A program made the translations under genes and the position numbers. A model generated the notes under the pieces. The model did not search any database. It was not told the DNA's origin and saw only the letters and a program-made list of their open reading frames with translations. Source: Thermoproteus sp. (GTDB lineage Archaea; Thermoproteota; Thermoprotei; Thermoproteales; Thermoproteaceae). Taken from it: DNA of 64,000 nt. Below, in pieces: positions 21,657 through 50,899 of the stretch (within the stretch, counting starts at the first letter, position 1; every line of letters begins with the position of its first letter). The stretch spans positions 62,001 through 126,000 of the forward strand of contig JAWARJ010000001.1 of NCBI GenBank assembly GCA_038893495.1. The letters run 5' to 3'.

Positions 21657-24600
21657 CTATCCCGCGCCCATCAGCCTCAAGTCGCCTTTGCTCAACACAA
21701 GACGCCAAACTCTGCCGTTGGGCGTCTGTTTGACCTCGACCTTCCTGCCTATCGGCGCGCTTAAGGCCTCCGCGTGGGCTTCGGCGACGCGCCTATCGGC
21801 GTGAGCTAACTCGACCCTGCCGTCCTTCGCCGTCTTTCCGCCCATGGCGGTCCACTTCCTCTCGCCTCTGGAGTCCTCCGTGTATAGGACCGAATATACA
21901 TAACGCCCCTCCTCTGCCTCGACTAGGAATACGTAGTGGCGCGCCTCCGGTCTCGCCTTAAGCAACACGATGCTTGGCGGTAGCTGAAGCGCCTCGCCCC
22001 TCCTCGTAGCTTGTTCGATAGCGCTAGCCAGCAGGCCCCACAGACCGTCGCGCCTGATTCTTACCTCGGCACCTGCCAGGTCGACCTCGACCCCAAGGGC
22101 CCTCAAGGCCGGATATAGGTCTGCCGGCGCCGATATGTGCTCAGTGCCCTTCACCAGCTTGAAGGGCACCTCGTACCTCCGTCCCTCCACATATATGGCG
22201 ATTGAGGACCCCTCCACGTGAGTCTCCACGGCCTTAGGCGCCTCCCTCAACGCCGACCTCTCAAAGGCCTCTAGGGCGGGGCGGTATACGTAGAGGTAGT
22301 AGGCGTGTTCATCCTCGCCGATCTTGCCCACTCCTCCCTCGACGCCCATCCGCCTAAGCCTCTCGGCCAGCGCTATTCGTAGCGCCTCAAGCACTTCGCG
22401 CTCGGCATGATTGAGCATGACGCTTCGGTTCCTCTCCTCATATCTGCCTTCGACCGCCCTCCAAAGCCCCTCGTGCTTGAACATGAAGCGGTAGTATGCA
22501 ACATCACTCTCGACGTGTTTGTATACGCGCAACCCCTCGTCCGCATAAAGCCGACGGTAGCCCTCGGGCTCTACGCCAGCGGCCGTCAATAGGCCCCAGT
22601 AGGACTCCTCGTCTAGCCTCACCTCCCTCCCGATCGCCTCCGCGTATATGCCGGTCGCCCTCAGCCCTCGGTAGAATCGAGCCGTCTCGTCCTCCGAACC
22701 GAACTGCAATACGGTGTATGGCTGGAGCTTGCTGTGGAGCACCCTCTCCTGGAACTCCACTACGTGACCGCCTACCTCGAACTTCATCCCGCCGAGATGC
22801 CTAACGGAGACTGGCTCGGCCGCCGTCACGCGCTCCGGCCTATAGCCCAGCCTCTCGAGGAGGGTCTTACGGAAGCCGCCGGTAAAGACTATCCTCACGG
22901 TGTGCTCTCCCCTCTTCGCGAGGTACGCGTGTAGCCCCTCTGCCTCAAGCATCTGGGCTATCTCCTCTAGATGTTCGGCGTATATGCCCTCCGCCTCATT
23001 CCTATAGAGCCGGCCGACGAAGCGCCCCCTTCCCTCGCCCCACTCGACGTACTTCACATCCACGTCCACATAGGGCTGACGGGGCCTCGTGTCGAGCCAT
23101 CTGTAGTACCAAATTCTGAACTTCACGTCTCCGTTGTCTCTCACCTCTAGCAGTTCTACCCTCGCTCTGTCGAGCCACGGCCCCGCCTTTCCACCCATGG
23201 CGACCGAGAGCTCGTGCCTACGCGCCAGCAAGTGGCGCAGTACCCTGCCCTCTTTGGCGCTCAACACGTACCTACCGCCCTCCGCCTTGGCCTTCAACTG
23301 TTTTGCCAGCTCTCCGATGCCGCGGCACTGCCGCTCGGCGCATTCCAGACGGAACTCGCCTCCTCTATCCACAAGCCGGTAGAGCTCCCAACGCCCGGCG
23401 GCGGGATAGGCGAACTCGATCTTGAACGCCTTTTCGCCCTCTTCGGCCTCCTCAAACGCCCTCACTACGTACGCCCTCTCCCCAACGACCTTTATGTGGG
23501 GCATTTTCTCCAACGCCCTTCTGTACACCGCATCTTGATACTCCACAACCATGATTTTTGCGCTCACCCTTAAATCCAGCTCGCCGCCGGCAAGCTCGTA
23601 TAGGGCCAAGAGCTTCACTAGCTTCGGCGGGTCAGAGCCTCCCGGCATGCCCCAGTCGTACCACCTGTTCACGATTTCGGCCAGCACTCCCTTCGTCCTC
23701 TCCGACAGGCTGTCGAAAAGCCTCTTCACAAGCCGTTTGGATAGATCTTCGTGGAAGTAGAGAGCCTCGACGTCGCGCGTAATCTTGCCCCTCGCCGATT
23801 CGCCGTACGCAAGGGCGAATATGCGCAGTAGCAGTTCGGCCTCGTCCCTATACGCCTCGTGGACAGAGTAGCCCAGCCTCCCCCTCTCCACATCCACATT
23901 GCCGTCCCCCACGAAGAGGGCAAGCCAGAAGCCCGGGTTTTCCAGATGGTCTGCGATCGGCGCCAAAACGGGCCTTTCGCGAAGCACCTCCTTGACCTTC
24001 TCGAAGGCAGACCTAAACCTCTCCCGGTCGTTCGCCAAAAGGGCGCTCTCGGCCTCGACTACCGCCTCCTTCAGCCTACCGCCTACCTCCTTCAAAGCGC
24101 CCCACGCCTCCGCCTTTGTGGGCATCACCACGTTGTTAATACGCGTTTCAAGCTCCACGTCCAGGCCCTGCTCGGTGTAGCGGGCCCTCGATAGGTACAC
24201 AACAAGCTTCGGCCCGTCGGGGTCATTCCAATCGCGTTCGTTCACAAACGTGGAGAGGACAAACATGTTGGCGGGCACATCGGGCGAGTCGAACTTAATC
24301 CTCTTGTTCTTCTTGTCGACGCCTAGGTCCGTCAAGCCCAAGGCAGGCCTTGCCCCTTCAGCCTCCCTCTCGTCGAGACTGCCGGCGTAGAGGTGGGCCG
24401 GGTCTAGCCTCTCCATCTCTAGGTTGATGGTTAGAGTCATGTTTCTGGCCTTGCCCTCTTCGTCTCTCTTGACGCTCGCGCTGAGGGACGCCAGCCGATA
24501 CAGCTCCCCCACCGACGTCTTTACTCTCTCGGTCTCGAGCCCGAAGACCTCTCTTGCAAGTATTTCAACCCTCAGGACGGTCTCGCCGCTCCTAAAGGCG

Positions 24601-27600
24601 AGGACGTAGACTCCCCTCGCCTCGACGTTGCCCACCTTGACGTCCGGGGCTCTGTACCAAAAGCCCACCGCCGGCTCCGCGTCGGGCCTAAACGCCCTCC
24701 TCTCCTCTTCGGTCAGCACGTGCAGATAGCTCTCGCCGACCAGCGTCTTTTTGGCTATCGGCCTCAGCTCTCCGCCCAAAGCCTTCGCGACAATCCAGTC
24801 CTTCAGCTGGGCCGCATCTGAGCTTTTGGCGATGTCGTCTGGCGCCTTACCCCTCCCCTTGAAGAAGCCGGGCCCTTCCTCCCTAAGGCGTAATATCGAG
24901 CCGACTGCCTCCGCGACCTCCACGCCGACGCGCCCCTCCTCGGCGGGGTCGACGGCCTTGCGCTGTTTAGCCAGCTCGGCGAATTCCTTCAAGCGGCCTA
25001 ACGCCTCGGCGACCTCCGTAGCGACCTCCTTCACCACTTCCCCTCTCTCCCTCTCGGCCTTGCCGTAGAGGAAACCGGCCTTTGCGAGGAGGGCGGCGTG
25101 GTCGATAAACAGCGCGTGTTGTATCTGGTGGGCCGCGAGCCACGTCACCAGCCCGGCTGCCGCGGCCGCGGCGATTAGAGCGACGGCCCTCCAGTGCCCT
25201 CCAAGCCATTGGACTATACGGGCCGCCGCCTCCACCACCGCCTCGTATAGGCGCTCGACGGCCAGCTTTATGCCTTCGGCCGCCCCCTCCACCGCCATCC
25301 TCACCTTCTCCACGGCGGTCTTGATTACGTGGACGGCGTCTCTGTACTTGCCCGCAAGCGCCATCGACGCCGCGGCGGTGGCGGCGTAGACAAGCTCCGG
25401 CCTTACGACGCCATGCAACGCCTCGGCCAGCGCGACCCCGCCGGCCGCGGTGAGCGTCGCGTATAGGGCTCTGTCTATTGTGGTTACGGCCTTCTTCACG
25501 ACGTCGCCGTACGACGTCACCACCTGTAGGTACCTATCGACGGCGGAGCGATAGGCGTTCCACAGCCTTGTCGCCTCTATGCCGTAGCGCTCCGCCAGCT
25601 CCTTCACAATTTTGAAATCTTCGCGGAATAGCCAGTGTCCCCACTCCTCCCACAGGCTTCTGGTAGGCAGAACTCCCTCATAGGCCCACAGCGCGGCGTG
25701 GATGAAGTCGTAGGCGTTGGGGACGCTTGCCCTCTCCGCCCACTGGGCCGCAAGCGCCTTCAGCCTATTGACCATAGCCTCCACGGCCTCGGGGTCGTGT
25801 CGGGAGGCAAGCGCGGCGGCCCACCTATTGAGCTCGGCCGCGGCCCTCCTCTCGGCCTCCCTCCTAACCCTATCCGGCACCGCGATTGAGCCGTAGCGCT
25901 CGGCCAACAGTGACAATGCCCTCCTCCTCGCGGCGGCCCTATCCCTAGCCGCTTCGAGCTTGGAGAGCTCGAGCGACGCGAGGCCGGCCCTAAGCTCCAG
26001 ATAGGCCTCGGGAGTGAGCTTGAGGTGCCAGTTCTCGGGATGCTCCACGGCAAACGCCCTAACCACCGCGTTGTCAATGTGCGTCGACTTGACGTAGACC
26101 TGGCCCAGCTTTACGTAGGAGACCTCCTCCCCGGCCCTCTCGGCCTCAGCCGGCTTGGCCTCCTCAGCCGGCCCTTCGGCCTCCGGCACCGCGGCCTTAG
26201 CCCCCTCAGGCCTTTCCGCCTTGACGGCTCCCTCAGCTCCAGGCCTGGCCCTCTCCGCCTCCTCCCTCTTGACTTGCCCGGCCTCCTCAGCCCTCGCCTC
26301 TTCTGCCAGCTTTGCCCTCGACCTCGCCTCCCTTACGCCCCTAATTCTCTTCATCTCCTCCTCCCTCCTCTTCTGCTCTTCCATGAGCTTCAGCCTCTCC
26401 TTAGCTACCTCCTCGGCCTTCAGCTGTTTGGACGTCCTAATCGACTCGATAAACCTCTTTACGGCCTCCTCGGCCTCTCTCATCTTCAGATTTCCTCTCA
26501 GTGCAATCCTCAAGGCCTCTTCGTCCCACCTGGCCACGTCGTTGTTGCGGCGCCACGAATCGAAGAGCGAAAGGGCCTCCGAATACGTAGCCCACCCGCC
26601 CTTTATCGCTATGTTGAGGGCCTTCAACGTGGCGGCCTGCCTGAAGTCGGGCTCAAGTAGCTCGTAGAGAGAGCCCCTGGCGTTCCTCTTGGCCCACCAA
26701 ATGAGGCGGGCGTAGGCCTCGGGATCGGAGGGCTTGTATACTGCCAGCTCTCCCCTCTGCCTCCTCGAAACGGCATATGCCCCCTTGAGGAAGTCGACTA
26801 CGTCGAAGCCCAGCCTATTGAGAGACAACATACGCACATGGCGCTCGAAGGCCGGCGTGAAGCGCCTCCGATACTCCTCAAGAGCTCTCTCCACATCGGC
26901 AGGCCCAAAGGATTCCCACCTAGCCATCCTCCTCAAGAAGAGGTATGCATTCACCGCGGCCAGGCCATCCTCCCAATGGACTACAGACCACCCCACGCCC
27001 AAGGCCTCTCTCGCCAAGTCGGGTCTCGCCCTCTTCAACGCCTCCCAGACCTCCCTCCTATACGGCAGAGGCCTCTCCAAATCGATCAGCGCCTCGACGC
27101 GAGGCCTCAAGGCCACTCCCCTATCGGTGCGGTCTACTGCAAAGCCCAAAGCCTCAGCCACAGACCAGTCGGCAAGCCAGCCGGGCCGGCCGACCACCTC
27201 GACTCCCCTAAGCGCGTAGAGAGCCTCGCGGATTTCCTCAATGGGCGCGTTGCGGGGCGCCAATATATATACTCTCTTGGGTCCAGTCAACGTGGATATG
27301 TACTCCTCAACCACGAGGCCTCCCCCTCTGGCCCAAGCCCTCGCCGCCTCCTCGTCGGTGGTTGCAAATATGGACGATCTATACTCGGCTTGAGGCCATG
27401 TGAATTCTCCCCTCGCGGCGGCCTCCAATGCGGCCTTAAGCTCTGCCCTAATGGAGGAAAGCTCTTCCGACGTGAACTCGGCTCTCGCCGCCAGCTCCAA
27501 AAGCTCAAGCGGCACTCCCCTCACGCCAAACCTACGGACAGCGCTGAAGGCCGCCTTTGCGGCCTCGGCCTCAACGCCCTCTATCAGCGCCTTAATCCTC

Positions 27601-30600
27601 TCCACGGTTGAGTAGTTGCCGTTGGCCAGCTCCGCAATTAGTTTAAGCTCGTCGGTCGCCATCAGCTCACGTCTAAGCGACTCGACGGCGGCCTGGACCC
27701 CCTCAGCCTCCACGGGGAGGCGCGAGGCGAGGCGGCCTAACTCCTCTGCGTACCTAGCGGCGCCCTCAACGACGCCGTACCTCGCATATTCGACGGGGAT
27801 GCCGGCCTTTGCGGCCGCCTCCTCAAGCTTTGCGCGCAACTCGTCGGCCAGCTCCGCATATAGGCCCGTCGACATCTTCGCCTCAAGCTCCTCTGAGGCG
27901 GCCGGTATGCGCCTAAGCGCCTCTAGGCGTTGTGTCGCTGGCGCCCTCCACGCCTCCCTATAGGAGTCCCAATTCCGTTTGACTTCGGCCGCTAACTGCC
28001 TAGCCCACTCCTTAAAGGACCCCCTCGCCGTAGAGGCGGCGTTTACCAACTCACCGAAAGCTTCGGGCGAGATTCTTACAAGTTCCCTTATCTGTCCCAA
28101 CGCGGCCAAAGTTTCCGAATGCCTCAAGCCGTACCTCTGGGCCAGAGCCTCGGCCTCCCTCACGAGGCGCGAGGCCGCCTCCCTCGCGATTTCGTCCACA
28201 GCGCTAGTCCGCAACGTCGGCAGAGGCCTCTCCAAAGCCCTAGCCACACGCAAGTCGGCCTTGGCCGGAGGCACTTTCGGCCTCCCCCTTATGAACTTCT
28301 CGAATTCGCGTAGGAGCGAATAGGCCATCACGACCGAAAAGGCCTCCTCAGCCACTTTGCCCTCCGTCAACGCCGCAAGCCGCGACGGCGTAAGGGCCTT
28401 GGCGGTATACTCAAGGGCCCTCTCGGGCTCCGGAATGACGTAGGTTCTAGTCAAGCCCAACCTGGACTCAAGGGCGCGGTAGTCCACGGCGGCCCAGACC
28501 TCCTTCAGCTGTCTGACGGCCTCCTGCGCGTCTTTAGGCTTTAGCTCGCCGCCCGTCAGGCCTAACGCACTGCGTATCTCCGCCACCACTTCGGCCAGCT
28601 GGCCGATGTCGGAATGTTGATACTTCCGATACGTCTTGGCCGCCCTATACGCCAACGCGATGGCCAAGGCCAAGTCCTCCTGTCTGCCCTCTTTGGCGTA
28701 GCGCTCCAAGAAGTACCGGGCGGCGTGTACGTCCAATACCGCCTCGGCCGTTCTCGCCTCTAGATACGCAAGCTCTCTGTACTGCCTTCCCCGGCCCGAA
28801 TAGTAGTCCTTGACTGCCTGCCTCAACGTCGGGGCCTTCGTTTCTGCTATCTCCTCGACGTAGGGCCTGGCGTCGCCCTTGACGGCCCTCTCCCAGCTTA
28901 TGACGGGGCCCAGCTTCTCGCCCTCAGACACGGGCAGATAGACTACCGTCGTCGCGGCCTCCCTCTCGTATTTCGAGAAGGAAGGCCTGAAGGCCTCGGC
29001 GGCCTCTCTCAGAAGGGAGCCCTCCAGCGTGGCGGCGACATACGCGCTCAACGGAGCCCTCAACAGCAACGCATCCACGCCGCGTTGATGCAACTCACGC
29101 CAGACGGGCGCGCCTACTTCGTAGGTGTAGTGGTGCCTAAGGAGCTCAACCTCCCTCCTCGCCTCGGCCAACCTCCCCAAAGGCCCCTTTAGCGACTCTC
29201 TCGTCTTTTCGTCTAAGGCCTTAAGCGCCGCCCTCACGTGGGACGGCCTTTCGTACTCTCTGCCCTCAAGCAGGGCGGAGAGGCCCTCCGCGACCTTCTC
29301 AGCCTTTTGGAGCTCCGCCCTTGCCTTGGCCTCAAGAGCCTTCAGCCTCCTCTCGGCCTTCGAGTATTCTTTCAGAGCCTTGGCGCCCTCCTTCGCCGAC
29401 GCCGCGAACCCCGCCAGCTCCTCGAAGTATTTGGCGGTTGCCTCAAGCCCTACGCGCCTCGCCGCCTCCGCGGCCCTCTTCAGCTCCCCTACGTCGAGCT
29501 TAGACGCCCTTGCGATTAGGTCGGCAGGCGACTCGGCGCTAGCCTTCTCCATCAGAGCCTTTAGCTCTGTAGCCGCCTTTGCGACCATCTCGGCTTTAGC
29601 CTTGGCCCCAGAGGCCTCCTTTACGGCCTCCTCGTAGAGGGGCTTGAGCTCCAAAACGCGGCTGTACCAATCGCCGAGGGCCTTGCCCTCAGCCGCCATT
29701 GCGGAGGCCTCCTCCGCCAGCCTGCCCTCAGCCAGAGCTCTGCCGAGGCGGTTCACCACCTCAAGGCCGCCTCTCTCCTCCGCTTGTCTTCTTAACGCCG
29801 CCCAGCGCTCCAAGAACTGGGCGGTCTTGGCGAGGCCAGCCTCTCTAGCCGCCTTCGCCGCCTGTCCGAACTCCGCAGACAGTCCTATACGCCTCAAGGC
29901 GTCTTCAGCAAGCGAGATCCGCCTCAGCCTCTCCTTGGCGGCTTGGTGTTCTTTCACGACGCGCTCGTGCATTCCGGCGAGCCTCCCCAAGGCCACAGCC
30001 GCCTCGGAGGCCGCGGAGGCGTACCTCTCCCTAGCCTGCCCGTGTCTGAGGTACTCCTCCAGGAATTGGGCAGTCCTCTCGAGGCCGAGTTGCCTGGCGA
30101 ACTCGATGCCCCTTCTGACGTCCTCCTCTGTGGCGGTCGGTAGGGCCTTAAACAGAGACTCCAGATACGTCACGTCCTCCACACGCTTGACCGCCTCTGC
30201 CCTAATGGCCTCCTCGCGCTCCTTGACCGCGGCCCTAAGCTCCTCTCTAGCCCTCTGAAGCCTCTCCTCAAGGGGCTTCAGTTGCTGGTATATGCGGTCG
30301 ATGCGTCTTACATCCCTCCCCTCCCTCTGGTACTGTTCCCTCAACCGCCTATAGGTCTCGTCGAGGCGGCCCTCAAGCAAAGCCCTCCTAAGCTCGATAT
30401 ACGCGGGGTCGACCTCACGCCTCACCCCCTCAAGGACTCCCCTATAGCTACGGGCCGCGCGCTCCAGCGCCTCCCTCGCCTCTACGGCCAGCCTACGCCT
30501 GGTCTCGGCCAGCCTCTCCTCAACGCGAGAGAGACGTTGTTGCAATTCCTCTATTTCTCTATAGGTCTCTTCTAACCGCCTCTGCCTCCCCTCAAGCTCC

Positions 30601-33600
30601 TTGGGAGGCGCGGACTGGCGTAGGGCGTCGACCTCGGCCTTGATGGACTCGGCTCTCCTCCTCAACTCTTCGATCTTGGATAATAAGCCGGCCCTCTCCT
30701 CTTCAAGCCTCGCCGCCTTCTCCGCGGCCCTCCTCACCGCGCCCAGCTTCACTTCGGCCGCCCTTGCGGCCCTCGCCACCTCCTTCGCCTTTAGGGTCCG
30801 CACAACGTCCTCTACGCCCTCGCCAGTGGCGGCATATCTACGGGCCTTCGCGACTGCCTCAAGCAGAGGCGTCGTCCTAACGATCTGCCTACTCATCTCC
30901 TCTCTCGCCACGTCCTTGACCGACAGAGGCGCGTGTGCGTAGTGTTGCGCGATAAGCTCCTTGGCGCCTTGGACTATCGAGTCCAGCCTCCCGCGCCTCT
31001 CCCACAGGAATTCCGCAACCTCCCGCGTCGTGCGGAAGCCTACCGGCCGCCCCTCTGCCGCTACGCCGATGGCCTCCCAAAGCCTTGAGGCGCCCTTGGG
31101 GTCTATATTCTGCAGATGGGAGGCGGCGTACCTAAGGCGCCTCTCCAGCTCCTCCTTGGTCTTGGCGTACCGCGCCAGTTCGAGCTCCTTTAGGGCGTAT
31201 TGGACGTACCTCTCCCTATACTCCAAGACGTATTTGAGGTGCTTAGAGTCAACGCCCTTCTCGGCCTCAGCCGCCCTCGCTTTTGCCTCAGCCGCGGCGG
31301 CCCAGAGGGCGGTCCTAAGTCTCCTCAACTGGTCGGCCTCTGCCCTTGTGATCTTGCCCTCGGCCTCCCATCTGCGTATTATGGGCTCCGCGAGGAGGTA
31401 GAGATAGCCGTACTGGCCGCGGTACGTCAAGACGTAAAGCTTGTAGAGAGTCGGATGGCGTTCCGCCAGCCTCTCCTCGACCCTCGAAATGAAGGCGTCC
31501 ACGCGGGGAGAGAGCCTTCTGGCCAGCTCCACCACGTCGTGTGCCTGGACGGCGCTGTACAGCCTTTTGAGCGCCTCCCTAGCCTCTTCCCTCCAGCGGC
31601 GCTTCTCCTCCATACGTATCTCCCAATCCTCCTTCCCGCCCGGGCGGGACAGCCTCTCCTCTATCTGCCTGCGCTTCTCCTCCTCCCACCTCCGCGTCAC
31701 TTTCTCCTCCACAAGCCTCCTTCTGGGGTCTCTCAGCCACTCTCTAGAGGGCAGGCCGAGGCGGGGCCTTGGGAGTCTAGGCAACTTCGCCGCTATGAGG
31801 CGGGAGGCTCTGGCCAGTCTGGCCCTAATGGGCTGTACCAGCCTCCTCCCAAGCCCCGTCGTTAGGCCCGCGCGGAAGCCCATCCAGTATCCCAACTGCG
31901 ACAAGACGTCGAAAGCCACTGAGTACAGGAGGCGCGCGGGTGTGGGGAAGCCGAATAGGAAGCTCATAGCCTCGAAGACGCCGAGCACTAGGATGCCGGC
32001 GAAGATCAGCCTCTTCCACTCCTCGCCGTACGCCATGGCCACCTCGAAGGTGTTGTACATCTCTTGCGAGAAGAAATTGCCAACTAGAGGAACTCCCCAA
32101 GGCCCCATCGGGAACATGTCCAGCCTGACGTAGCTACCGCAATCGTTCACGCCGTAGGGGCAGGGCCCTCCCCAATAGACTCCCTTGAGGACTCCGGCCA
32201 GATATGGCGCCCCGCATATGCTCCCATTGCCCACCGGGATACAGACCTCGGCCGGCGCAGGCGGGAGGAATCCCTTCGACAGAAAGTGATGTAACATTGT
32301 GTTAGTCACGTTTAGGAGCGTCAAGGTGGCGTTGGAGTAGGCGAGGGGCGCGTCGACTGCCCAGATCTCTCTGCCTGGCGTAAGTCTCAACGCGCCCAAC
32401 ATCTTCACGCCGCCGGGAGGCCACCTCGTCGAGTTCCACTCGAAGACGATACAGGCGGCGTATAGGTGGTACAGCCGGTAGGAAGCCGGAATGGGCTCCG
32501 GCATGGGGTGCCACAAATAGCCGTGCCAGTCGCCGTTGGCATACCTCAGACCCTCCTCAAGCGCGGGGACGGCCCACTGGCCGGGAGTGCCCTCCACCAG
32601 CCCCAACATCCACTGGATGCCGCTCGGAATCTGCCTCACCTGGTAGTAAGAGGCGGTGGCGTTACGTAATACGAGAGAGGCGAAGAGGCCCTCCCTATTT
32701 ATCTCGTCGACAAGCGGCAGTGCCCTAAGCACGCCCCTCCACCCGCCGTAGGGCTCCTCCACGACGGCCGAGGAGCAGTAGACCGCTTGCTCCGCGCCCC
32801 AGAGGTAGTAGTCTGCCGGCAGCCCGTCTTTAGGCCTCGCCTCGGGCGGCACTTCCGACTCAGATAGCCTGTCCGGGAGGGTCGGCTGTGCACTGGGACT
32901 CACGTTTACGTTTGCGCCGCTGAGCCAAGCCCAGTAGTACACCACGCGCACGTAGGGCTGAGGCACGTGGAGCAGAACTACGTACTTGTAGGGCGTCTCC
33001 GGCGTGAAGTAGTCGCTATTGCAGTAGGGAGGCGTCTGGGGGTACCAACCGCCATGCACCCAGTATTTGTCTATCGACCAAGTCCTCAACAGGTACGTCA
33101 CGTTTAGGGCTCCGACGGTCCCCGGCGGGCGGCGCCAAGGCTCTGGCGAGTAGGGCCTCGGCAGAGTGTAGTTGGCGCGAGACAACACCTTCTTGGCGGT
33201 GTACTCCTCCCACCAGTCCCTATAGGCCGTCTTGTAGGTCCCGTTTACGTACCACGTGCATATCTCGGTCTTGCGGTAGAGAGGTATCTCGTCGGTGGGG
33301 TATGGCCTCCCCGACGACAGCTGTAGGGACGCGTTGAACTGGGCTTGGGCCGGGTGGGTCGCGGGCTCTATCCACGTCAACGTGCCGTTCGGCATCTCGT
33401 ATGTGAGCAGTCCCGGCGACGCCGTGACGTTCATTAAGTCGCAATTAACGGCGTGGCCGGCGACGAGGCACTTCTCTCTATCTGGCCCGTAGCCGGCAGC
33501 CCAATCCCACAGCCCCACCGCGCCGCTCGCGTTGGACCTACTCAGCAACGCGGTGGTGTTTCCCCACATGGCGGATAGGCTGTACGTATAGCCGGCAACT

Positions 33601-34910
33601 AGCGTTCTGTACCTACCGACGTAGTTGAAGACTAGATCTGTCAAATTCGCCTTCTGTAACCACGCGCACGTCTCGTTTGCGTCTCGCTCCACCATGGCTG
33701 TGACGTTGCTGTTTAGCTCCCGCCCCATCTGGAAGAGGCCCTCCACCTCAGTCGGTATGAGGGAATTGCATTTGGCCACGCTCAACGTCACGTCCATCTC
33801 CAGCCAGTCGTACCAAACGGAGGCGTTCATCGCCTTGTCGCCCCACTCCAAGGCGCCTACGGCAGGCCCCGCGGCCGCCAGGACTCCGTCCGTTATGTTT
33901 TTGGCGTAGAGAGAGGTCTTATTCAGCCAGCCCTTCAATACGGCTAGATACTCCTGCCTCCTCTCCTCTGCCAGTTGTTTCAAATAGGTGTTGTTGGCGT
34001 ATTGGTCTACCAGCGTCGTCAAGAATGGGTTCTCCTCCATGGCCTTTTGCACCGCCGAGGCGTGGTAGGTGTTGTTGTATATGACGTAGTATACGCCGTC
34101 GCCGCCGAATACCGCCAGCTGGGGCGCTCCGTATGGCACCGCCGTGGAGTTTATCTGCAGGCCGCCTGTGGCGTTCTTTAGGTTTTGGGCGAAGGCGCCT
34201 CCCCACAACGCCATCCCATATACGTCAAGCGCCGTGACGAAAGCCAGATGGGAGACCGCTATCGAGATCGCGGCTAGGGCGATGGCGACTCCGCCCAAGT
34301 CTCTAGTCCGCCTTACGGCCACCAGAGGCACCCCCACCGATATGAGGAGGGGCGCCCATAGGGCGACTCTCGCCATGACCACCACTATGTGCCAGATTAC
34401 GGTGAGGGACATGTAGATGTAGACCATAGCCAGTATGGGCTGGGTCAGCGCGTTGACCCAGTTCTGCAACCCCATAAGTCTCAAGGCGGACTCGGCGTAG
34501 TCTAAAGCCTGCCATGCCCCTCCCGTTATGACAGTCAATATGCCGTCTATGACCGTCAGCACGGTGGTCGCCGCGGCGTATGTGTTGACCAGACTGAGCG
34601 TAGTCGACTCCAGCCTGTTGTAGACGTATTCCGCCACGGCTAGATTGCGGCATAGGTCGTTGCTGGAGACCACCGTGTACATGTTGAGCCCGTCTACTCC
34701 GTATAGGGGCGTCGGCATGCCGAAGGCGTTGAGCACTGCCGTAAGTGCGGCGGGAATCAACACCGTCGGCAGTAGGGCCGCTATTATGGGCCTCCACCAG
34801 CCCTCCCAATCCCTAAAGGCGAAGAGCTTCAAGAGGCCTAGGGCTATCGAGGCGTATACGGCCAGCTGTAGTAGGTCCCCGCCGAAGGGGCTGGGTACCG
34901 CACAGTTCAT
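21657..34910 (-). CDS. Giant membrane-anchored protein, about 4417 residues
   Basis: Start at ATG 34908-34910, overlapping the upstream stop as ATGA. Residues 1-235 carry about five TM helices. Residues 236-965 form a presumably extracellular region with about twenty N-x-S/T sequons. One or two TM helices follow at about 965-1015. The remaining 3400 residues are presumably cytoplasmic: a long Ala/Arg/Glu-rich helical and coiled-coil region (to about 2850), an Ala/Pro/Glu linker (about 2850-2945), a segment with two Ala-rich hydrophobic stretches (near 3150-3270), and a C-terminal part of about 1000 residues that resembles the PaRep2b family of Pyrobaculum. That part includes FVGDGNV near 3670, reminiscent of LAGLIDADG motifs. 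Its place after the pilin and membrane-channel genes suggests a structural role in DNA transfer, with the N-terminus possibly VirB6-like. The function is otherwise unknown. Confidence 0.85.
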   Translation of the reverse strand: MNCAVPSPFGGDLLQLAVYASIALGLLKLFAFRDWEGWWRPIIAALLPTVLIPAALTAVLNAFGMPTPLYGVDGLNMYTVVSSNDLCRNLAVAEYVYNRLESTTLSLVNTYAAATTVLTVIDGILTVITGGAWQALDYAESALRLMGLQNWVNALTQPILAMVYIYMSLTVIWHIVVVMARVALWAPLLISVGVPLVAVRRTRDLGGVAIALAAISIAVSHLAFVTALDVYGMALWGGAFAQNLKNATGGLQINSTAVPYGAPQLAVFGGDGVYYVIYNNTYHASAVQKAMEENPFLTTLVDQYANNTYLKQLAEERRQEYLAVLKGWLNKTSLYAKNITDGVLAAAGPAVGALEWGDKAMNASVWYDWLEMDVTLSVAKCNSLIPTEVEGLFQMGRELNSNVTAMVERDANETCAWLQKANLTDLVFNYVGRYRTLVAGYTYSLSAMWGNTTALLSRSNASGAVGLWDWAAGYGPDREKCLVAGHAVNCDLMNVTASPGLLTYEMPNGTLTWIEPATHPAQAQFNASLQLSSGRPYPTDEIPLYRKTEICTWYVNGTYKTAYRDWWEEYTAKKVLSRANYTLPRPYSPEPWRRPPGTVGALNVTYLLRTWSIDKYWVHGGWYPQTPPYCNSDYFTPETPYKYVVLLHVPQPYVRVVYYWAWLSGANVNVSPSAQPTLPDRLSESEVPPEARPKDGLPADYYLWGAEQAVYCSSAVVEEPYGGWRGVLRALPLVDEINREGLFASLVLRNATASYYQVRQIPSGIQWMLGLVEGTPGQWAVPALEEGLRYANGDWHGYLWHPMPEPIPASYRLYHLYAACIVFEWNSTRWPPGGVKMLGALRLTPGREIWAVDAPLAYSNATLTLLNVTNTMLHHFLSKGFLPPAPAEVCIPVGNGSICGAPYLAGVLKGVYWGGPCPYGVNDCGSYVRLDMFPMGPWGVPLVGNFFSQEMYNTFEVAMAYGEEWKRLIFAGILVLGVFEAMSFLFGFPTPARLLYSVAFDVLSQLGYWMGFRAGLTTGLGRRLVQPIRARLARASRLIAAKLPRLPRPRLGLPSREWLRDPRRRLVEEKVTRRWEEEKRRQIEERLSRPGGKEDWEIRMEEKRRWREEAREALKRLYSAVQAHDVVELARRLSPRVDAFISRVEERLAERHPTLYKLYVLTYRGQYGYLYLLAEPIIRRWEAEGKITRAEADQLRRLRTALWAAAAEAKARAAEAEKGVDSKHLKYVLEYRERYVQYALKELELARYAKTKEELERRLRYAASHLQNIDPKGASRLWEAIGVAAEGRPVGFRTTREVAEFLWERRGRLDSIVQGAKELIAQHYAHAPLSVKDVAREEMSRQIVRTTPLLEAVAKARRYAATGEGVEDVVRTLKAKEVARAARAAEVKLGAVRRAAEKAARLEEERAGLLSKIEELRRRAESIKAEVDALRQSAPPKELEGRQRRLEETYREIEELQQRLSRVEERLAETRRRLAVEAREALERAARSYRGVLEGVRREVDPAYIELRRALLEGRLDETYRRLREQYQREGRDVRRIDRIYQQLKPLEERLQRAREELRAAVKEREEAIRAEAVKRVEDVTYLESLFKALPTATEEDVRRGIEFARQLGLERTAQFLEEYLRHGQARERYASAASEAAVALGRLAGMHERVVKEHQAAKERLRRISLAEDALRRIGLSAEFGQAAKAAREAGLAKTAQFLERWAALRRQAEERGGLEVVNRLGRALAEGRLAEEASAMAAEGKALGDWYSRVLELKPLYEEAVKEASGAKAKAEMVAKAATELKALMEKASAESPADLIARASKLDVGELKRAAEAARRVGLEATAKYFEELAGFAASAKEGAKALKEYSKAERRLKALEAKARAELQKAEKVAEGLSALLEGREYERPSHVRAALKALDEKTRESLKGPLGRLAEARREVELLRHHYTYEVGAPVWRELHQRGVDALLLRAPLSAYVAATLEGSLLREAAEAFRPSFSKYEREAATTVVYLPVSEGEKLGPVISWERAVKGDARPYVEEIAETKAPTLRQAVKDYYSGRGRQYRELAYLEARTAEAVLDVHAARYFLERYAKEGRQEDLALAIALAYRAAKTYRKYQHSDIGQLAEVVAEIRSALGLTGGELKPKDAQEAVRQLKEVWAAVDYRALESRLGLTRTYVIPEPERALEYTAKALTPSRLAALTEGKVAEEAFSVVMAYSLLREFEKFIRGRPKVPPAKADLRVARALERPLPTLRTSAVDEIAREAASRLVREAEALAQRYGLRHSETLAALGQIRELVRISPEAFGELVNAASTARGSFKEWARQLAAEVKRNWDSYREAWRAPATQRLEALRRIPAASEELEAKMSTGLYAELADELRAKLEEAAAKAGIPVEYARYGVVEGAARYAEELGRLASRLPVEAEGVQAAVESLRRELMATDELKLIAELANGNYSTVERIKALIEGVEAEAAKAAFSAVRRFGVRGVPLELLELAARAEFTSEELSSIRAELKAALEAAARGEFTWPQAEYRSSIFATTDEEAARAWARGGGLVVEEYISTLTGPKRVYILAPRNAPIEEIREALYALRGVEVVGRPGWLADWSVAEALGFAVDRTDRGVALRPRVEALIDLERPLPYRREVWEALKRARPDLAREALGVGWSVVHWEDGLAAVNAYLFLRRMARWESFGPADVERALEEYRRRFTPAFERHVRMLSLNRLGFDVVDFLKGAYAVSRRQRGELAVYKPSDPEAYARLIWWAKRNARGSLYELLEPDFRQAATLKALNIAIKGGWATYSEALSLFDSWRRNNDVARWDEEALRIALRGNLKMREAEEAVKRFIESIRTSKQLKAEEVAKERLKLMEEQKRREEEMKRIRGVREARSRAKLAEEARAEEAGQVKREEAERARPGAEGAVKAERPEGAKAAVPEAEGPAEEAKPAEAERAGEEVSYVKLGQVYVKSTHIDNAVVRAFAVEHPENWHLKLTPEAYLELRAGLASLELSKLEAARDRAAARRRALSLLAERYGSIAVPDRVRREAERRAAAELNRWAAALASRHDPEAVEAMVNRLKALAAQWAERASVPNAYDFIHAALWAYEGVLPTRSLWEEWGHWLFREDFKIVKELAERYGIEATRLWNAYRSAVDRYLQVVTSYGDVVKKAVTTIDRALYATLTAAGGVALAEALHGVVRPELVYAATAAASMALAGKYRDAVHVIKTAVEKVRMAVEGAAEGIKLAVERLYEAVVEAAARIVQWLGGHWRAVALIAAAAAAGLVTWLAAHQIQHALFIDHAALLAKAGFLYGKAERERGEVVKEVATEVAEALGRLKEFAELAKQRKAVDPAEEGRVGVEVAEAVGSILRLREEGPGFFKGRGKAPDDIAKSSDAAQLKDWIVAKALGGELRPIAKKTLVGESYLHVLTEEERRAFRPDAEPAVGFWYRAPDVKVGNVEARGVYVLAFRSGETVLRVEILAREVFGLETERVKTSVGELYRLASLSASVKRDEEGKARNMTLTINLEMERLDPAHLYAGSLDEREAEGARPALGLTDLGVDKKNKRIKFDSPDVPANMFVLSTFVNERDWNDPDGPKLVVYLSRARYTEQGLDVELETRINNVVMPTKAEAWGALKEVGGRLKEAVVEAESALLANDRERFRSAFEKVKEVLRERPVLAPIADHLENPGFWLALFVGDGNVDVERGRLGYSVHEAYRDEAELLLRIFALAYGESARGKITRDVEALYFHEDLSKRLVKRLFDSLSERTKGVLAEIVNRWYDWGMPGGSDPPKLVKLLALYELAGGELDLRVSAKIMVVEYQDAVYRRALEKMPHIKVVGERAYVVRAFEEAEEGEKAFKIEFAYPAAGRWELYRLVDRGGEFRLECAERQCRGIGELAKQLKAKAEGGRYVLSAKEGRVLRHLLARRHELSVAMGGKAGPWLDRARVELLEVRDNGDVKFRIWYYRWLDTRPRQPYVDVDVKYVEWGEGRGRFVGRLYRNEAEGIYAEHLEEIAQMLEAEGLHAYLAKRGEHTVRIVFTGGFRKTLLERLGYRPERVTAAEPVSVRHLGGMKFEVGGHVVEFQERVLHSKLQPYTVLQFGSEDETARFYRGLRATGIYAEAIGREVRLDEESYWGLLTAAGVEPEGYRRLYADEGLRVYKHVESDVAYYRFMFKHEGLWRAVEGRYEERNRSVMLNHAEREVLEALRIALAERLRRMGVEGGVGKIGEDEHAYYLYVYRPALEAFERSALREAPKAVETHVEGSSIAIYVEGRRYEVPFKLVKGTEHISAPADLYPALRALGVEVDLAGAEVRIRRDGLWGLLASAIEQATRRGEALQLPPSIVLLKARPEARHYVFLVEAEEGRYVYSVLYTEDSRGERKWTAMGGKTAKDGRVELAHADRRVAEAHAEALSAPIGRKVEVKQTPNGRVWRLVLSKGDLRLMGAG

Positions 34911-35821
34911 TCTCCGGCGAGGGAGACTCCGGCGTGGTCGAATATCCTCGATATGCCGTATGCCAACGCCCCGTATACCGCAAGGACCAGCGCCGCGTAT
35001 GCGGCTATTTCGGCTAGGTCGAAGGCCTTCGACGCCGCATCGGCCCAGAAGACCGGCACGAAGGGGTTCCACGCGGGCAGGGACAGGCCGCCCATTGCGT
35101 CTATCTTCGCCTTTAGGAAGTCTGCCCCCAATATGAGCGTCGGCGACGCGCCGTATACGCCGAGAACCCCCGCCGCCAGCCCTCTAGTCCTCTCGTGTAG
35201 GACCCCTACGGCGGCTAGGTACAACAGCAGAGATGTCCCCAATATGCCCGAGGCGAATAGGGAGGCCACATATGCCGATACTGCCAGAGGCCCCAGGGTG
35301 AAGGCGGTGCTGACGTACGCCATGAGGATCTGGCCGAAGTTTATCAACATGTTCTGTAGGATGGGGACAGACCCGCCGACCCCCACAATTGCCAGTAGCG
35401 TCGAGAGCGACCCGGCGAGGTCTCCGACCCACTTGCTGTAGTTCCCCGCGGCGCAGTTCAGCCCGGCCGATGCCCACTCGGCGTATCTATAGAGGGCGAA
35501 GTTGTCGGGCGTGAAGGACGGCGCCTCGAAGCAGCCGCCCGTTGCGTTTAGTCGAGAGGCGAAGTAGGCGGCAAATTGGGCCGCCAAGTAGCCGATGGCT
35601 AGCGCCAAGGCGAAGAGCGCCGCCGAGATGGCTCCCCTATACAATACGTCGTAGGCCTCCTCTTTGAGCCTTCTGATCCCGGAGAGCATGAGGATGCCTG
35701 CATATGCCGCGAAGCCCCCCAGGATCGTGGCGCCTGTGCCCACCACGTCTGGGTACTGGGCGTACGCCAGGGGGGCCAACAAAAGCAACGAGAGGAGGAG
35801 GGAAAAGGGGAGTTTCCTCAT
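34907..35821 (-). CDS. Polytopic membrane protein of the transfer apparatus (CedA/TedA- or VirB6-like)
   Basis: Start chosen at ATG 35819-35821, which overlaps the pilin stop (ATGA) and gives a signal peptide MRKLPFSLLLSLLLLAPLAYAQ; an upstream frame extends further but runs over the pilin gene. The 304-residue protein has about seven hydrophobic helices after the signal, with an extracellular loop containing Cys residues (GGCFEAP and LNCAAGNYS). Size, topology and position between a VirB2-like pilin and the giant protein resemble the membrane channel of the crenarchaeal Ced/Ted DNA-exchange systems, which are homologous to conjugation machinery. The family assignment comes from context and topology, not from a motif. 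Confidence 0.65.
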   Translation of the reverse strand: MRKLPFSLLLSLLLLAPLAYAQYPDVVGTGATILGGFAAYAGILMLSGIRRLKEEAYDVLYRGAISAALFALALAIGYLAAQFAAYFASRLNATGGCFEAPSFTPDNFALYRYAEWASAGLNCAAGNYSKWVGDLAGSLSTLLAIVGVGGSVPILQNMLINFGQILMAYVSTAFTLGPLAVSAYVASLFASGILGTSLLLYLAAVGVLHERTRGLAAGVLGVYGASPTLILGADFLKAKIDAMGGLSLPAWNPFVPVFWADAASKAFDLAEIAAYAALVLAVYGALAYGISRIFDHAGVSLAGE

Positions 35822-36276
35822 GCCAAGCCTAACGCCTGGAGTATAGGCTTGACCAACAGGTCGTTCAGCACTTGAGCCGGGCTCACGGTGGCCTGGACCC
35901 CGAAGGCGCCGGTGATTGCCGATATGCCCGCCACAAGGCCGACGATGCCGGCGCTCACGATGAATACAGCAAGCAGCCAGCCTTTGACTGTGTCTATGAA
36001 GTCGTACATGGCGCCTAGGCGGGTGAACTTCGTCGGCCCGAGCCATGTGAGTATGGCGTACATAAGCAACAACGCGAGGGAGCCCCAAAAGGCCGCCGCG
36101 AGTACGCCCTTCATGAAATTCACGACATTCTGCGCGGTCGTCTGCCACCAGCCAGCGCTAGTGACCCCTGCAGTGGCGTTTGCGGCGGTGGTTGTACTAC
36201 TGGTGGCGGTCTGGGCGTAGGCCAGCGCCGCCGTCAATACGGCCGCGACGAAAGCGACCAAGGTGCCTCTCCGCAT
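35818..36276 (-). CDS. VirB2/TrbC-like pilin (TedC-like)
   Basis: A 152-residue protein with signal peptide MRRGTLVAFVAAVLTAALAYA, a Thr/Ala-rich mature N-terminus, two long hydrophobic helices (VLAAAFWGSLALLLMYAILTW and LLAVFIVSAGIVGLVAGISA) and a basic loop between them. This is the layout of VirB2/TrbC conjugative pilins and of the Pyrobaculum TedC pilin, which builds pili for DNA exchange. It is first in a three-gene operon with ATGA overlaps. A TATA-like ATTTAAACC lies at about 36288-36297, followed closely by the ATG. Assignment to the TedC family is from size, topology and gene order. Confidence 0.7.
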   Translation of the reverse strand: MRRGTLVAFVAAVLTAALAYAQTATSSTTTAANATAGVTSAGWWQTTAQNVVNFMKGVLAAAFWGSLALLLMYAILTWLGPTKFTRLGAMYDFIDTVKGWLLAVFIVSAGIVGLVAGISAITGAFGVQATVSPAQVLNDLLVKPILQALGLA

Positions 36277-38375: not shown

Positions 38376-39325
38376 GTGTTGTCTTCATCGCCCACCTTAG
38401 CCGATTTCTCGCAACAAGTCCAGATCTCCGTGAACTCCGAGAGGTCTCTCCTCGGCCCCGTGAACGCCAAGTCTATTCCCACTACATCTATCTGGACGAT
38501 CCCGCGGTCGGTCTTTTCCCGCCAGCCCCCTCCGTCCCTCCACGGAAGGCGGACCTCTACTCTAAGGGGCACGCCCGCCTCGGGGCTGGAAGGCCGTAGC
38601 GTGGTTACGCTAAAGGGCCGGCGCGCGCCTGCGGCGTCTACTTCTAGATACTTCACGAAATCCCGGTAGCATGGTTGCAGGAGGTGTTCTATTGCCAACT
38701 CGACTAAGGTGAAGTTCACCGTTAGGTATAAGTAGAGGTATTCAAGGGGGTCTTTGAGGGGCTCATATGGAATTTTATAAAACTCCAAGGCGTCCGCCCG
38801 CCGCGCCGCTATGGACAGGCCGTAGGCGGTGGCCAAGGCCTCCTCGTCGCAGTGGTCCTCGACGGGGCTTTCGCAGTGATATCGCTCATGGGCCTTTAAA
38901 TATGCCCAAGACATGAGATCAGTAAGCGACACGATCTTCTCTCTAATTCCGGTAATCCGGCCCTTCTCAAAACTACCAAGCCCAAGATACCGTTCAAGTT
39001 CCGACATATACATGCCGATACGGATAGCCACCTTATGGGCCAAATCGTCTTGCCACTTTTTAATTCTGTCTAGGTTGTAGATAACCGTTTTTCTACAGCA
39101 AACTGCCAAATATTCCATACAGGGCGCCTTGCAACATTCTTTACCTTTTTTTATATTCATTTTTCTAACCTTTTCAATTAGATCGTAAAGGTCGTCGGGA
39201 ATCTCGAAATCAGGCGGCAAGCAAATGCATTCTACGTCATCTTGCAACGTAGATATGTCGATGGGCAAACACTCAACTTTGCAGTGGTCGCAGATGTGCT
39301 CATAGCGCCTACAAGTCGCGGCCAT
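38363..39325 (-). CDS. Cys-rich protein with HExxH metallopeptidase-like motif
   Basis: 320 residues. The N-terminal 80 residues carry about twelve Cys, including CxxC, CC and CxC groupings (ICDHCKVEC, CIC, CCKAPC, VCCRKT), which suggests metal binding or disulfides. In the middle is AYLKAHERYHCESPVEDHCD, followed by EEALATAYG: HERYH at residues 146-150 fits the zincin HExxH consensus, and the downstream acidic D-E-E/A-x-Y-G segment is where zincins have a third ligand. The family is not recognised; peptidase activity is an inference from this motif. It ends with another CC and C. It is in an operon with the 611-residue gene (13-base overlap). Confidence 0.72.
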   Translation of the reverse strand: MAATCRRYEHICDHCKVECLPIDISTLQDDVECICLPPDFEIPDDLYDLIEKVRKMNIKKGKECCKAPCMEYLAVCCRKTVIYNLDRIKKWQDDLAHKVAIRIGMYMSELERYLGLGSFEKGRITGIREKIVSLTDLMSWAYLKAHERYHCESPVEDHCDEEALATAYGLSIAARRADALEFYKIPYEPLKDPLEYLYLYLTVNFTLVELAIEHLLQPCYRDFVKYLEVDAAGARRPFSVTTLRPSSPEAGVPLRVEVRLPWRDGGGWREKTDRGIVQIDVVGIDLAFTGPRRDLSEFTEIWTCCEKSAKVGDEDNTCGL

Positions 39326-40798: not shown

Positions 40799-41437
40799 GT
40801 GACTAGACGGCCCGCGGCCTCAAACAGCAGGCGTAAGTTGGATTTTAAGCCCCCTACATATGTGTTGATACACATCTGGCATCCAAAGGGCGGGACCGGC
40901 AAGACCACCGTCGCCGTCTCGCTGGCTGTCGCGCTCTCTAGGAGCTGGGGCAGGGCGCTCTATGTAGAGATCGGCCCCGTCCCCCTCGGAGTGAAGCTCC
41001 TCGGCGTCCCGCCTGACGGCCAGATACACAGGGGGAGAGGAGGCGTCTTGGCCGTATATGCACCGGACGTCGAGAAGGCGCAGCCGCTCTTCACGACGGA
41101 GAGGGCCATGGCCGTAGTGGCGGACTACCCGCCCTGCATAAAGCCCGAAGAGGGCGGCCTGCTTCTGCCCGTAGCGGATTGGCTCTCGGCGTCGACGCTT
41201 GAGGCCTTCGGCAATGTGAAGATAGCCGTCCTCAACAAGGATAGGGGTTGGGAGTCGAAGTTGCCGACGCCCTACGAGCTGGTCAGACTCCCGCACAGCT
41301 ACGCCGTGGAGAGGGCAGTGGCGGAGGGCGTCCCTCCCGTCCTCGTGAAGCCGCTGTCGAGCGAGCACAGACAGTTCGTGGAGGGCGTAAAGCGGCTGGC
41401 CGACCGCATAATAGAGCTGGCTGGCGTCAAGAAATGA
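40799..41437 (+). CDS. ParA/MinD-like P-loop ATPase
   Basis: 212 residues with the deviant Walker A motif PKGGTGKTTVAVSLAVAL near residue 30 and a VVADYPP segment as motif II. Such ATPases partition plasmids or position cell machines, and some accompany conjugation systems. It is shorter than most ParA proteins (250 or more), and the first 25 residues are basic and may be leader-like. GTG at 40799 is the first start; a later GTG or TTG just before LIHIWHPKGG is possible. It starts a three-gene operon ending in the VirB4-like ATPase, with the next gene overlapping as ATGA. Confidence 0.8.
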   Translation: MTRRPAASNSRRKLDFKPPTYVLIHIWHPKGGTGKTTVAVSLAVALSRSWGRALYVEIGPVPLGVKLLGVPPDGQIHRGRGGVLAVYAPDVEKAQPLFTTERAMAVVADYPPCIKPEEGGLLLPVADWLSASTLEAFGNVKIAVLNKDRGWESKLPTPYELVRLPHSYAVERAVAEGVPPVLVKPLSSEHRQFVEGVKRLADRIIELAGVKK

Positions 41438-41836: not shown

Positions 41837-43741
41837 ATGAAGAAACACGCCAAGAATTGGTACGACCTCTCGCTTTATGCATTGGCCGGCTCGCTGGCGG
41901 GCGTCCTCTACAGCCCCGCCGCGTTTGTATTCACCGGGGCGGTCCTCTGGGCTCTTGGGGATAAGATCTTCGCCCGCTTGTCGCCGGAGCCCATCGAGCC
42001 TAGACGTGTGGAGAAGGCTTTGGGAGACCTCAAGGCCGCCTACGACCCGGACGCCAAGTGTTGGCACTTCCTCTGGAGGGCCGAGCCCGTCGTGAGCGCT
42101 CTGGGCGCCGAGGCCTATCCCGAAATACACAAGCTCATTAACGCCCTCGCCCTAAGCTACAACGAGGCCTTTACGTACATCATGCTTGAGAGGAAGTACA
42201 TTAGGTTTACCACATGCGGCGTCGACGAGAGCCAAGCCCTCCACAGAGCGCTGGAGGTAGAGGAGGCCTTGAAGTCGCAGTACAACCTCAAGCGGGAGGA
42301 CCCCTGGCTGGGCACGCGCAAGCCGCCGGCGGAGAGGCCCTTCTGGATTGTGCTGGGTGCCGTGCTCGCAATAGGCTTCCTGGCCAGAGCCCTCCCGTTC
42401 GCCATACCCGTTGCGGCTCTCGCCTACTACAAGTGGCGTAAGTTCAAACGCCGCTACTCATACACGGTGCTCCCCTTCGAGGCGTATGCGGCCTCCTTCG
42501 AGGGCTTCTACCAGTCGCCGTCGATTGTGGACAGGATAGCCGCCACGGAGGCTACCTCCTTCAGTAGGGCCCAGAGGCATTGGGCCGTGGTCTTCACGCC
42601 GGCGCCTGACCATGTCATGATCAAGAAGTTTAGCAAGTACTACGAATCGGTGAGGGAGAAGGGCCATATCTACGTCAAGATGCGCCGCTACGCCGAGGCG
42701 CTTGAGCGTATACAACGCGGCGAGAAGTTCCTCTACCTCATGGCCTTCGGCGAGAGCTCATATCGAGGCTCGACGACACAGTTGAAGAGGGCGCCTGGCG
42801 TCGCCGGCGCCATGTTTTGGCGTCTCGACTACTGGAAGGAGGCGTTTAGTTTCGACCTGGCTAGGTTTCCCATCCTATACGGCGGCTTGCATCTGGAGAC
42901 CGAGAGGAGGTATATCAACCTCGGCGTGGAGCACCTCACGAGGAGAGACGTCGTGGTTGACATAGACTCACTGCCGGCGCCGCACCTGTTGGTCTTCGGC
43001 GGGTCGGGGATGGGCAAGTCGAAGACTATGGCCTGGCTGATTCAACAGCTACACAACAAAGGCGTGAAGATCGCGATAATTGACCCCCACGGGGACTACC
43101 GTTGTGTGGCCGAGGAGCTCCGTCTGGCGGACCTCCCCCGTAACGTCCTCCCGCCTCTAGACGAGGCTTCGCTCACGAAAATCTCGACGGAGTTCGGCTT
43201 CGGCAGGGCTGAAGACGCCTTGAAGGCCCTCGGCTTCGAGCTGGGCGAGGAGCCCCCCGAGCAGTACCGCATCTCCCTGTTGGGCATAGACCCAGTAAGG
43301 CAGTCCTTCGCCGTCACCGCATGGACGCTATACGAGCTGTCTCGGGCTATGGACAAGAGGGCGGAGAAACTGGAGAGGGTGTTGATTGTAGACGAGGCGT
43401 ATCTGGCCAGGGGCCCGGTCCACGAGATGCTTGAGTTTATGAGCCGCGGCGCGCGTAAGTTCGGGCTGGCGGTGTTCCTCATTACGCAGTTGCCCATGGA
43501 CGTGCCTAAGTCTCTCGTGGATATGGCCGCTGTTAAGCTAATTCTGGGCGGCTCTAGCGAGTACATTGCGGACGCCGCGGCGTATTTGAACCTCACGGGC
43601 AACGATGTGTCTTGGCTGAACTCGGCGAGGGCGCCTAGAGAGTCTGGAGGCGTTGTGAGGGCGGTCGCGTCGCTGGCGCCGGGGGCCTTGAGGCACCACG
43701 TGGAGATACAGCTACCAACGGAGGTCTTCCAGTGTGCATGA
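41837..43741 (+). CDS. Membrane-anchored VirB4/HerA-type ATPase (CedB/TedB-like)
   Basis: 634 residues. Two pairs of hydrophobic helices occur in the first 170 residues (near 10-40 and 115-155). The ATPase core follows: VFGGSGMGKSKTMAWLIQQL (Walker A, about residue 392), IAIIDPHGDYR, ERVLIVDEAYLA (Walker B, about 515), and FLITQLPMDVPKSLVDMAAVKLILGGS with the HerA/FtsK-type sensor Gln. N-terminal membrane anchors plus this core are the arrangement of CedB, which powers DNA transfer in crenarchaea and is related to VirB4/TraC. It is separated from the preceding gene by only four bases. With the pilin and channel genes on the opposite strand it makes a near-complete transfer apparatus. Confidence 0.82.
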   Translation: MKKHAKNWYDLSLYALAGSLAGVLYSPAAFVFTGAVLWALGDKIFARLSPEPIEPRRVEKALGDLKAAYDPDAKCWHFLWRAEPVVSALGAEAYPEIHKLINALALSYNEAFTYIMLERKYIRFTTCGVDESQALHRALEVEEALKSQYNLKREDPWLGTRKPPAERPFWIVLGAVLAIGFLARALPFAIPVAALAYYKWRKFKRRYSYTVLPFEAYAASFEGFYQSPSIVDRIAATEATSFSRAQRHWAVVFTPAPDHVMIKKFSKYYESVREKGHIYVKMRRYAEALERIQRGEKFLYLMAFGESSYRGSTTQLKRAPGVAGAMFWRLDYWKEAFSFDLARFPILYGGLHLETERRYINLGVEHLTRRDVVVDIDSLPAPHLLVFGGSGMGKSKTMAWLIQQLHNKGVKIAIIDPHGDYRCVAEELRLADLPRNVLPPLDEASLTKISTEFGFGRAEDALKALGFELGEEPPEQYRISLLGIDPVRQSFAVTAWTLYELSRAMDKRAEKLERVLIVDEAYLARGPVHEMLEFMSRGARKFGLAVFLITQLPMDVPKSLVDMAAVKLILGGSSEYIADAAAYLNLTGNDVSWLNSARAPRESGGVVRAVASLAPGALRHHVEIQLPTEVFQCA

Positions 43742-47704: not shown

Positions 47705-47789
47705 GTTTGCATCTCATAGGCTGATTAATAAGATAAATACTGAAATCACAAGGGGCTGACTCTTAGTCAGTAGCCTATAGCTGAGCTTT

Positions 47790-50862: not shown

Positions 50863-50899
50863 ACTTCGTTACGTTTGATGGCGGTAAGGAAATCGGGCA

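Follow-up and report, generated by a model that had tools for sequence, protein, structure and literature searches.

The ted locus and its giant gene

The window, by which we mean the whole 64,000-nucleotide stretch of DNA analysed, belongs to a complete genome (a single contig of 1,995,394 bases) and contains on its minus strand a single 13.25-kb frame encoding a giant protein of 4,417 residues (21657..34910). The frame is open already from a GTG at 35072; its natural start is the ATG at 34910 and its stop lies at 21657, and the plus-strand reading is riddled with stops. The ATG of the giant overlaps the TGA of the preceding gene, tedA (34907..35821, minus strand), as ATGA, and the ATG of tedA overlaps the TGA of the pilin gene tedC (35818..36276, minus strand) in the same way. 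The tedA product is a VirB6/CedA-like polytopic protein of 304 residues with 7 transmembrane (TM) segments, whose P. calidifontis counterpart is the Pcal_0766 named in PMC9905601. The tedC product is a VirB2-like pilin of 152 residues which matches the solved P. calidifontis TedC pilin (PDB 8dft) with E = 2.2e-25. On the plus strand lie a ParA/MinD (VirC1-like) ATPase (40799..41437, from Pfam), 68% identical to the copy in the P. calidifontis ted locus, and tedB, a VirB4/HerA-like ATPase (41837..43741, from Pfam and NCBIfam), 52-54% identical to its P. calidifontis copy.

With a TedC pilin, a 7-TM TedA directly downstream of it and a VirB4-like TedB nearby, the operon is that of the published Ted DNA-exchange system, whose components TedC, TedA and TedB were named and described in 2023 (Beltran 2023; PMC9905601). 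The initial annotation of this DNA had described a single frame coupled through ATGA to a channel-like gene, in a conjugation-like operon with a VirB2-like pilin, and the locus bears this out. In P. calidifontis the TedC sequence shows the AVA/QA cleavage site that PMC9905601 reports, and it corresponds to the protein chain in 8dft. The same pilin, channel and ATPase are found there, and a giant of 5,058 residues follows TedA, its gene coming after Pcal_0766. The text of the Ted publication describes no giant component, and Pcal_0767, the P. calidifontis giant, is not mentioned in the literature searched.

Three further genes lie between the ted genes of the window. Two on the minus strand (36540-39325; 611 and 320 residues) separate the pilin gene from ParA/TedB; they gave no family match, and the other ted loci examined lack a counterpart of either. 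The third (39889-40695, minus strand) encodes a proteasome-subunit-like protein (Pfam, E = 6e-5), of which a 42% identical copy is found near the ted locus of another genome, G039.

Domain organisation of the giant

Neither the whole giant nor slices of it gave a match over the cut-off in Pfam, NCBIfam, PHROGs or PADLOC, and its organisation was read from hydropathy, composition and profile comparisons. Residues 1-240 (34191..34910, minus strand) form a TedA/VirB6-like TM cluster with six hydrophobic segments within residues 1-225, VirB6/CedA proteins being recognised here by at least five. Comparison by hhalign of 20 rows of the TM cluster with 12 rows of TedA gave E = 5e-6 and a probability of 86; a second run aligned 213 columns with a probability of 92, E ranging across runs from 5e-6 to 7e-8. 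Reversed controls reached a probability of 0.2, and the best of 40 block-shuffled controls scored 25.6 against 42.1 for the real comparison. From this homology the giant is most likely a paralogue of TedA, that is, a second subunit of the VirB6/CedA type, TedA itself having been tied to CedA and VirB6 in PMC9905601. The initial annotation was right about a channel-like N-terminus. A PDB profile search with the N-terminus found no match to bacterial VirB6. The AlphaFold model of residues 1-1060 was poor (pLDDT 49), a beta core at ~520-720 being the exception, and none of its Foldseek matches was significant; with this low-confidence N-terminal model as the query, the VirB6 of R388 appears in the list at E about 1.

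The following ~730 residues (241-967; 32010..34190, minus strand) are predicted from their N-glycosylation sequons to be extracellular and glycosylated. They hold ~24 sequons together with conserved Cys and Trp; for residues 241-1010 the count is 24 against 4.2 in shuffled sequences. All five orthologues show the same enrichment, with 20-24 sequons each where 3-4.6 are expected, and the N-x-T at N750 is invariant. The domain is closed by a TM helix found by hydropathy at residues 968-986 (31953..32009, minus strand). The 250 residues after this helix carry a net charge of +21, a positive-inside pattern, and past it sequons occur only at chance level. Every orthologue has the same topology, as have the ten shorter counterparts described below, and a large central or C-proximal hydrophilic domain is present as in extended VirB6 proteins. 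A sequon-rich region of this length with a further TM segment behind it had been noticed from the start. The companion proposal, that the remaining ~3400 residues are cytoplasmic, is favoured by the positive charge and the chance-level sequons as far as a second hydrophobic helix at 3242-3260, beyond which the last ~1,100 residues could lie on either side of the membrane.

The middle of the protein (residues 987-3241; 25188..31952, minus strand) is a charged, mainly helical region of about 2,200-2,250 residues with almost no cysteine and with conserved blocks at ~1950-2250 and 2400-3240. It belongs to no known family in Pfam, NCBIfam, PHROGs or PADLOC and has no useful PDB profile match; F-BAR proteins appear at E 0.03-0.65, which we take as helix similarity. 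We considered the 'Rad50' near Ted (PMC9905601) and rejected it as a candidate, the sole SMC-like signal here being a weak match at residues 1366-1480 which may reflect coiled-coil composition. Towards its end the middle runs into a hydrophobic linker (residues about 3141-3281; 25068..25490, minus strand) that contains the strong, conserved helix 3242-3260. The linker is common to all giants and to the N-termini of stand-alone PaRep2b proteins, with identities of about 28-44% and, over the linker set, E values as low as 1e-19. Its helix could place the C-terminal tip outside the cell.

The tip itself, residues 3300-4417 (21660..25013, minus strand), is delimited by synonymous divergence, by orphan copies and by Pfam matches in orthologues. 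Pfam assigns the final ~430 residues of the giants of P. oguniense and of genomes G029, G036 and G039 to PaRep2b (PF07775), with E = 1.8e-107 for P. oguniense. The window giant itself falls below the Pfam cut-off, its module being too divergent, and a PaRep2b profile built without its clade did not find the window tip; alignment-based matches of this tip depend on the rows of P. oguniense and G039 and cannot count as separate evidence for it. The PaRep2b-like end claimed by the initial annotation therefore holds for the orthologues, and for the window giant's own C-terminus we have dropped it. Stand-alone PaRep2b proteins of ~1,160-1,380 residues occur in many copies (35 matches in genome G027, 28 in P. 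oguniense), also in genomes that lack Ted.

An AlphaFold model of the G039 tip, made from 42 sequences, reached a pLDDT of 82 and consists of units of beta-beta-alpha-beta-beta-alpha type, which we read as four. The PDB entries matched by this model in Foldseek are nearly all LAGLIDADG endonucleases, plus WhiA, the best being I-AabMI (E = 3e-4, probability 0.99). Global TM-scores are low and the match is thus local, probably because the domain arrangement differs. The PaRep2b tip of the orthologues is accordingly predicted, on this model, to have a LAGLIDADG-type fold, sharing with the LAGLIDADG homing endonucleases (I-DmoI, I-SmaMI, I-AabMI) and WhiA both this fold and an invariant acidic motif: the Asp-Gly of the motif, acidic residue included, is invariant in all 36 of the sequences that cover it. 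It differs from the homing endonucleases in being fused to a membrane protein and in having one acidic motif among four units, units 2-4 having no conserved D/E at their starts comparable with the first and the second catalytic motif being absent.

In the window giant the corresponding motif is FWLALFVGDGNV (residues 3655-3675, with the acid at D3669; 23886..23948, minus strand). The window tip matches Pfam LAGLIDADG_3 with E = 0.0012, below the cut-off of that family. When the cytoplasmic part was scanned in 150-residue segments with a profile of the LAGLIDADG unit, the correct segment came top with a score of 28.9, the next reaching 19.4, and the segment centred on the motif gave E = 1.8e-4. 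With this moderate support, the first LAGLIDADG unit is probably recognisable in the window tip and the rest of the module is not. PF07775 as a whole, a repeat family of Pyrobaculum with loci such as L115-L127, has this predicted LAGLIDADG-type fold and a hydrophobic linker at the N-terminus.

Conservation, distribution and apparent exchange of the tip

A second copy of the cluster lies ~100 kb away in the same genome and encodes a giant of 4,857 residues. Besides that of P. calidifontis, orthologous frames of 4,372 residues in P. oguniense and 3,992 residues in G039 align with the window giant over long stretches. Giants are 24-31% identical in pairs over the N-terminal ~1,100-2,000 residues, and in the middle region copy 2 and the P. 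calidifontis protein reach up to 45%. The order TedC-TedA-giant is found at both loci of the source genome and in six other genomes (P. calidifontis, P. oguniense, G029, G036, G038 and G039), a conserved order that the initial annotation had asked for in Thermoproteales. An order-wide search found the giant N-terminus and TedC in the same 8 of the 19 genomes of the family and neither in the other 11 (p = 1.3e-5, a statistic that ignores shared ancestry). Homologues restricted to genomes without pilin and ATPase genes, which would have told against the initial annotation, were thus not encountered; in the family the reverse holds. Of the four giants in G029, one is broken and another has neither TedA nor TedC beside it. 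The broken copy (L062 and L132, about 279-290 kb), split into several frames beside TedC and TedA, looks like a decaying one.

Between the two giants of the source genome dN/dS is 0.11-0.28 over residues 1-3300 and 0.25-0.42 thereafter. Since the frame occurs independently in other genomes in the same order and is under purifying selection, it is neither a chance ORF, a pseudogene nor an assembly fusion. The extreme length and the G029 copy broken into several frames are what an artefact might look like, and the initial annotation had itself named an assembly-error fusion as a danger; the second copy and the orthologous long frames refute this, and we give it practically no weight. The giant gene is real and constrained.

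Other families and orders belonging to the class have shorter counterparts of 608-1,444 residues built on the same plan. They follow a TedC or TedC-like pilin or a TedA-like gene, except in the two genomes read from genus g8, where the counterpart lies elsewhere in the ted region; in the remotest orders the pilin was assigned from its size, its signal peptide and a weak profile match. The ectodomain is enriched in sequons in ten of ten. Giant size was found only in one family (Thermoproteaceae by content). The shorter proteins of the same plan in related families and orders indicate that gigantism is the derived state. The viral contigs searched contained no relatives.

The C-terminal module seems to have a history of recombination of its own, apart from that of the remainder of the gene. 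Compared in windows of 200 codons, the two giants show a dS of 0.2-1.1 as far as residue ~3200, of 0.9 at 3201-3400 and of 1.2-2.1 from ~3400 onwards, the change falling at about residue 3300, near the linker. The source genome also holds orphan modules, one of which shares 69% identity with the C-terminal 214 residues of copy 1. Another, the frame-broken L169 (G000:C1:1809000-1817000), joins copy-2-like sequence (76%) to copy-1-like sequence (71%). The jump in dS at the module boundary, together with these mosaic orphan copies, suggests that the tip has been exchanged.

A proposed role in Ted

We propose, with a probability of about 0.58 for the whole explanation (channel subunit, outer domain, inner arm and DNA module), that the giant is an extended VirB6-like subunit of Ted which keeps a module for DNA binding or nicking attached to the channel. 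The proposal starts from what the sequences give directly, namely the operon, the TedA homology, the topology signals, the conservation and the exchange of the tip, and from the predicted fold of the orthologue tip. The giant would be the third Ted gene product and, as a paralogue of TedA, the second VirB6/CedA-type subunit. We infer that its TM cluster is placed next to TedA at the foot of the TedC pilus, where it would form part of the channel or the pilus platform. The cysteine- and sequon-rich loop of ~730 residues would lie outside, probably as a surface collar or mating contact, and behind the helix at 968-986 an arm of ~2,200 helical residues would reach inward, bearing the C-terminal module. 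This LAGLIDADG-type module may bind and, more speculatively, nick chromosomal DNA, which would so be brought to the pore powered by TedB. A second VirB6-type subunit in Ted is plausible, since Saccharolobus cannot import DNA without CedE, a paralogue of CedA (PMC11868833). The Ced system of the Sulfolobales likewise has two VirB6-like paralogues in one DNA-transfer system, CedE being a 5-TM protein for which no ectodomain or tail is described.

Monomeric LAGLIDADG enzymes carry two motifs, and the one acidic motif among the four units of the modelled tip counts against the proposal. So do the want of a direct match to bacterial VirB6, the poor N-terminal model, the divergence of the window tip from PaRep2b, the helix at 3242-3260, the unmatched middle and the G029 giant that has no TedA or TedC next to it. 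In a stronger version Ted would have its own DNA-processing enzyme covalently bound to a channel subunit, a LAGLIDADG-derived nickase that selects and nicks chromosomal DNA from the end of the ~2,200-residue arm, stands in for both relaxase and coupling protein and has its specificity renewed by recombination with orphan PaRep2b-type cassettes; this version we consider decidedly unlikely. No relaxase is known for Ced or Ted (PMC9905601), which have to obtain and deliver DNA without one, and Ted has been called the most simplified type IV secretion system (T4SS; PMC11868833). A third conserved gene, with a channel-type domain, a putatively glycosylated surface domain and a predicted nuclease-fold tip, would alter its parts list, and the orphan PaRep2b repeat family would gain a predicted fold and a context.

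The evidence for exchange of the tip would also suit an effector with a polymorphic tip, in which the membrane part and arm display or deliver the nuclease-fold module against rival cells or mobile DNA and the module is replaced from orphan cassettes like the tips of Rhs/CDI proteins. The step in dS, a linker that is common while the modules differ, the orphan modules in the same genome with one mosaic among them, and the hydrophobic helix preceding the tip are all in keeping with this. We find it unlikely, however, as an unsystematic look recognised no immunity gene beside the giant, the tip is under purifying selection, its chance-level sequons argue for a location inside, and the usual target of LAGLIDADG proteins is DNA of the cell that makes them. 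The multiplicity of PaRep2b, its presence in Ted-less genomes, its not being found in genomes with the shorter counterparts and the description of PaREP2b as putative transposons by the authors of the P. oguniense genome (PMC3558965) point instead to a selfish passenger, a LAGLIDADG-derived mobile element fused to or riding in a ted gene of which Ted needs only the N-terminal ~1,000 residues. This too is improbable, given that all essentially complete giants keep the C-terminal module in frame and that purifying selection extends over the whole length, the middle arm being conserved as well.

A third possibility is that the tail is a structural scaffold with a purely mechanical task, an arm or a tether to hold TedB, ParA or the cell envelope, with a LAGLIDADG fold that is dead or binds nucleic acid as in WhiA. 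The helix-rich, charged middle, its weak SMC-related match, the single acidic motif and the presence of WhiA among the fold matches would agree with such an arm; the invariance of the motif acid in 36 of 36 sequences is unexpected for a dead site, and we hold the scaffold to be very unlikely. Among the partners that the initial annotation had suggested for a fused channel were a scaffold and a DNA-processing module, and the homology to TedA in the channel part and the predicted fold of the orthologue tip lend this some substance.

Its further statement that no secretion component of this design had been described needs qualification, because the operon is that of Ted and giant VirB6-like proteins, a precedent in size, are known in Anaplasma. 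The VirB6-4 proteins of Anaplasma (4,322 and 9,935 residues; PMC7648143, PMC12857230) likewise combine a VirB6-type TM region with a giant hydrophilic C-terminal extension, and their genes lie in a T4SS operon that has more than one VirB6 gene, a setting like that of the giant. In them the extension consists of tandem repeats and is apparently exposed on the surface, whereas that of the giant is probably cytoplasmic, carries a LAGLIDADG-type module and has a sequon-rich loop before it. Each of the three elements, Ted, the extended VirB6 proteins and PaRep2b, had been described before; the literature searched does not report them in combination, nor the conservation of that combination within the Ted operon, nor a LAGLIDADG fold for PaRep2b.

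Two other features of the window may be recorded. A block of low GC content (42-52%) at 44300-56400 encodes an N6 DNA methylase, a second DNA methylase, a DEAD helicase with PADLOC matches and a partner protein of 688 residues, and looks like a defence island. At 11756-15430, on the minus strand, a protein of 1,224 residues with helicase-like and topoisomerase-like parts reads, by eye, like a reverse gyrase.
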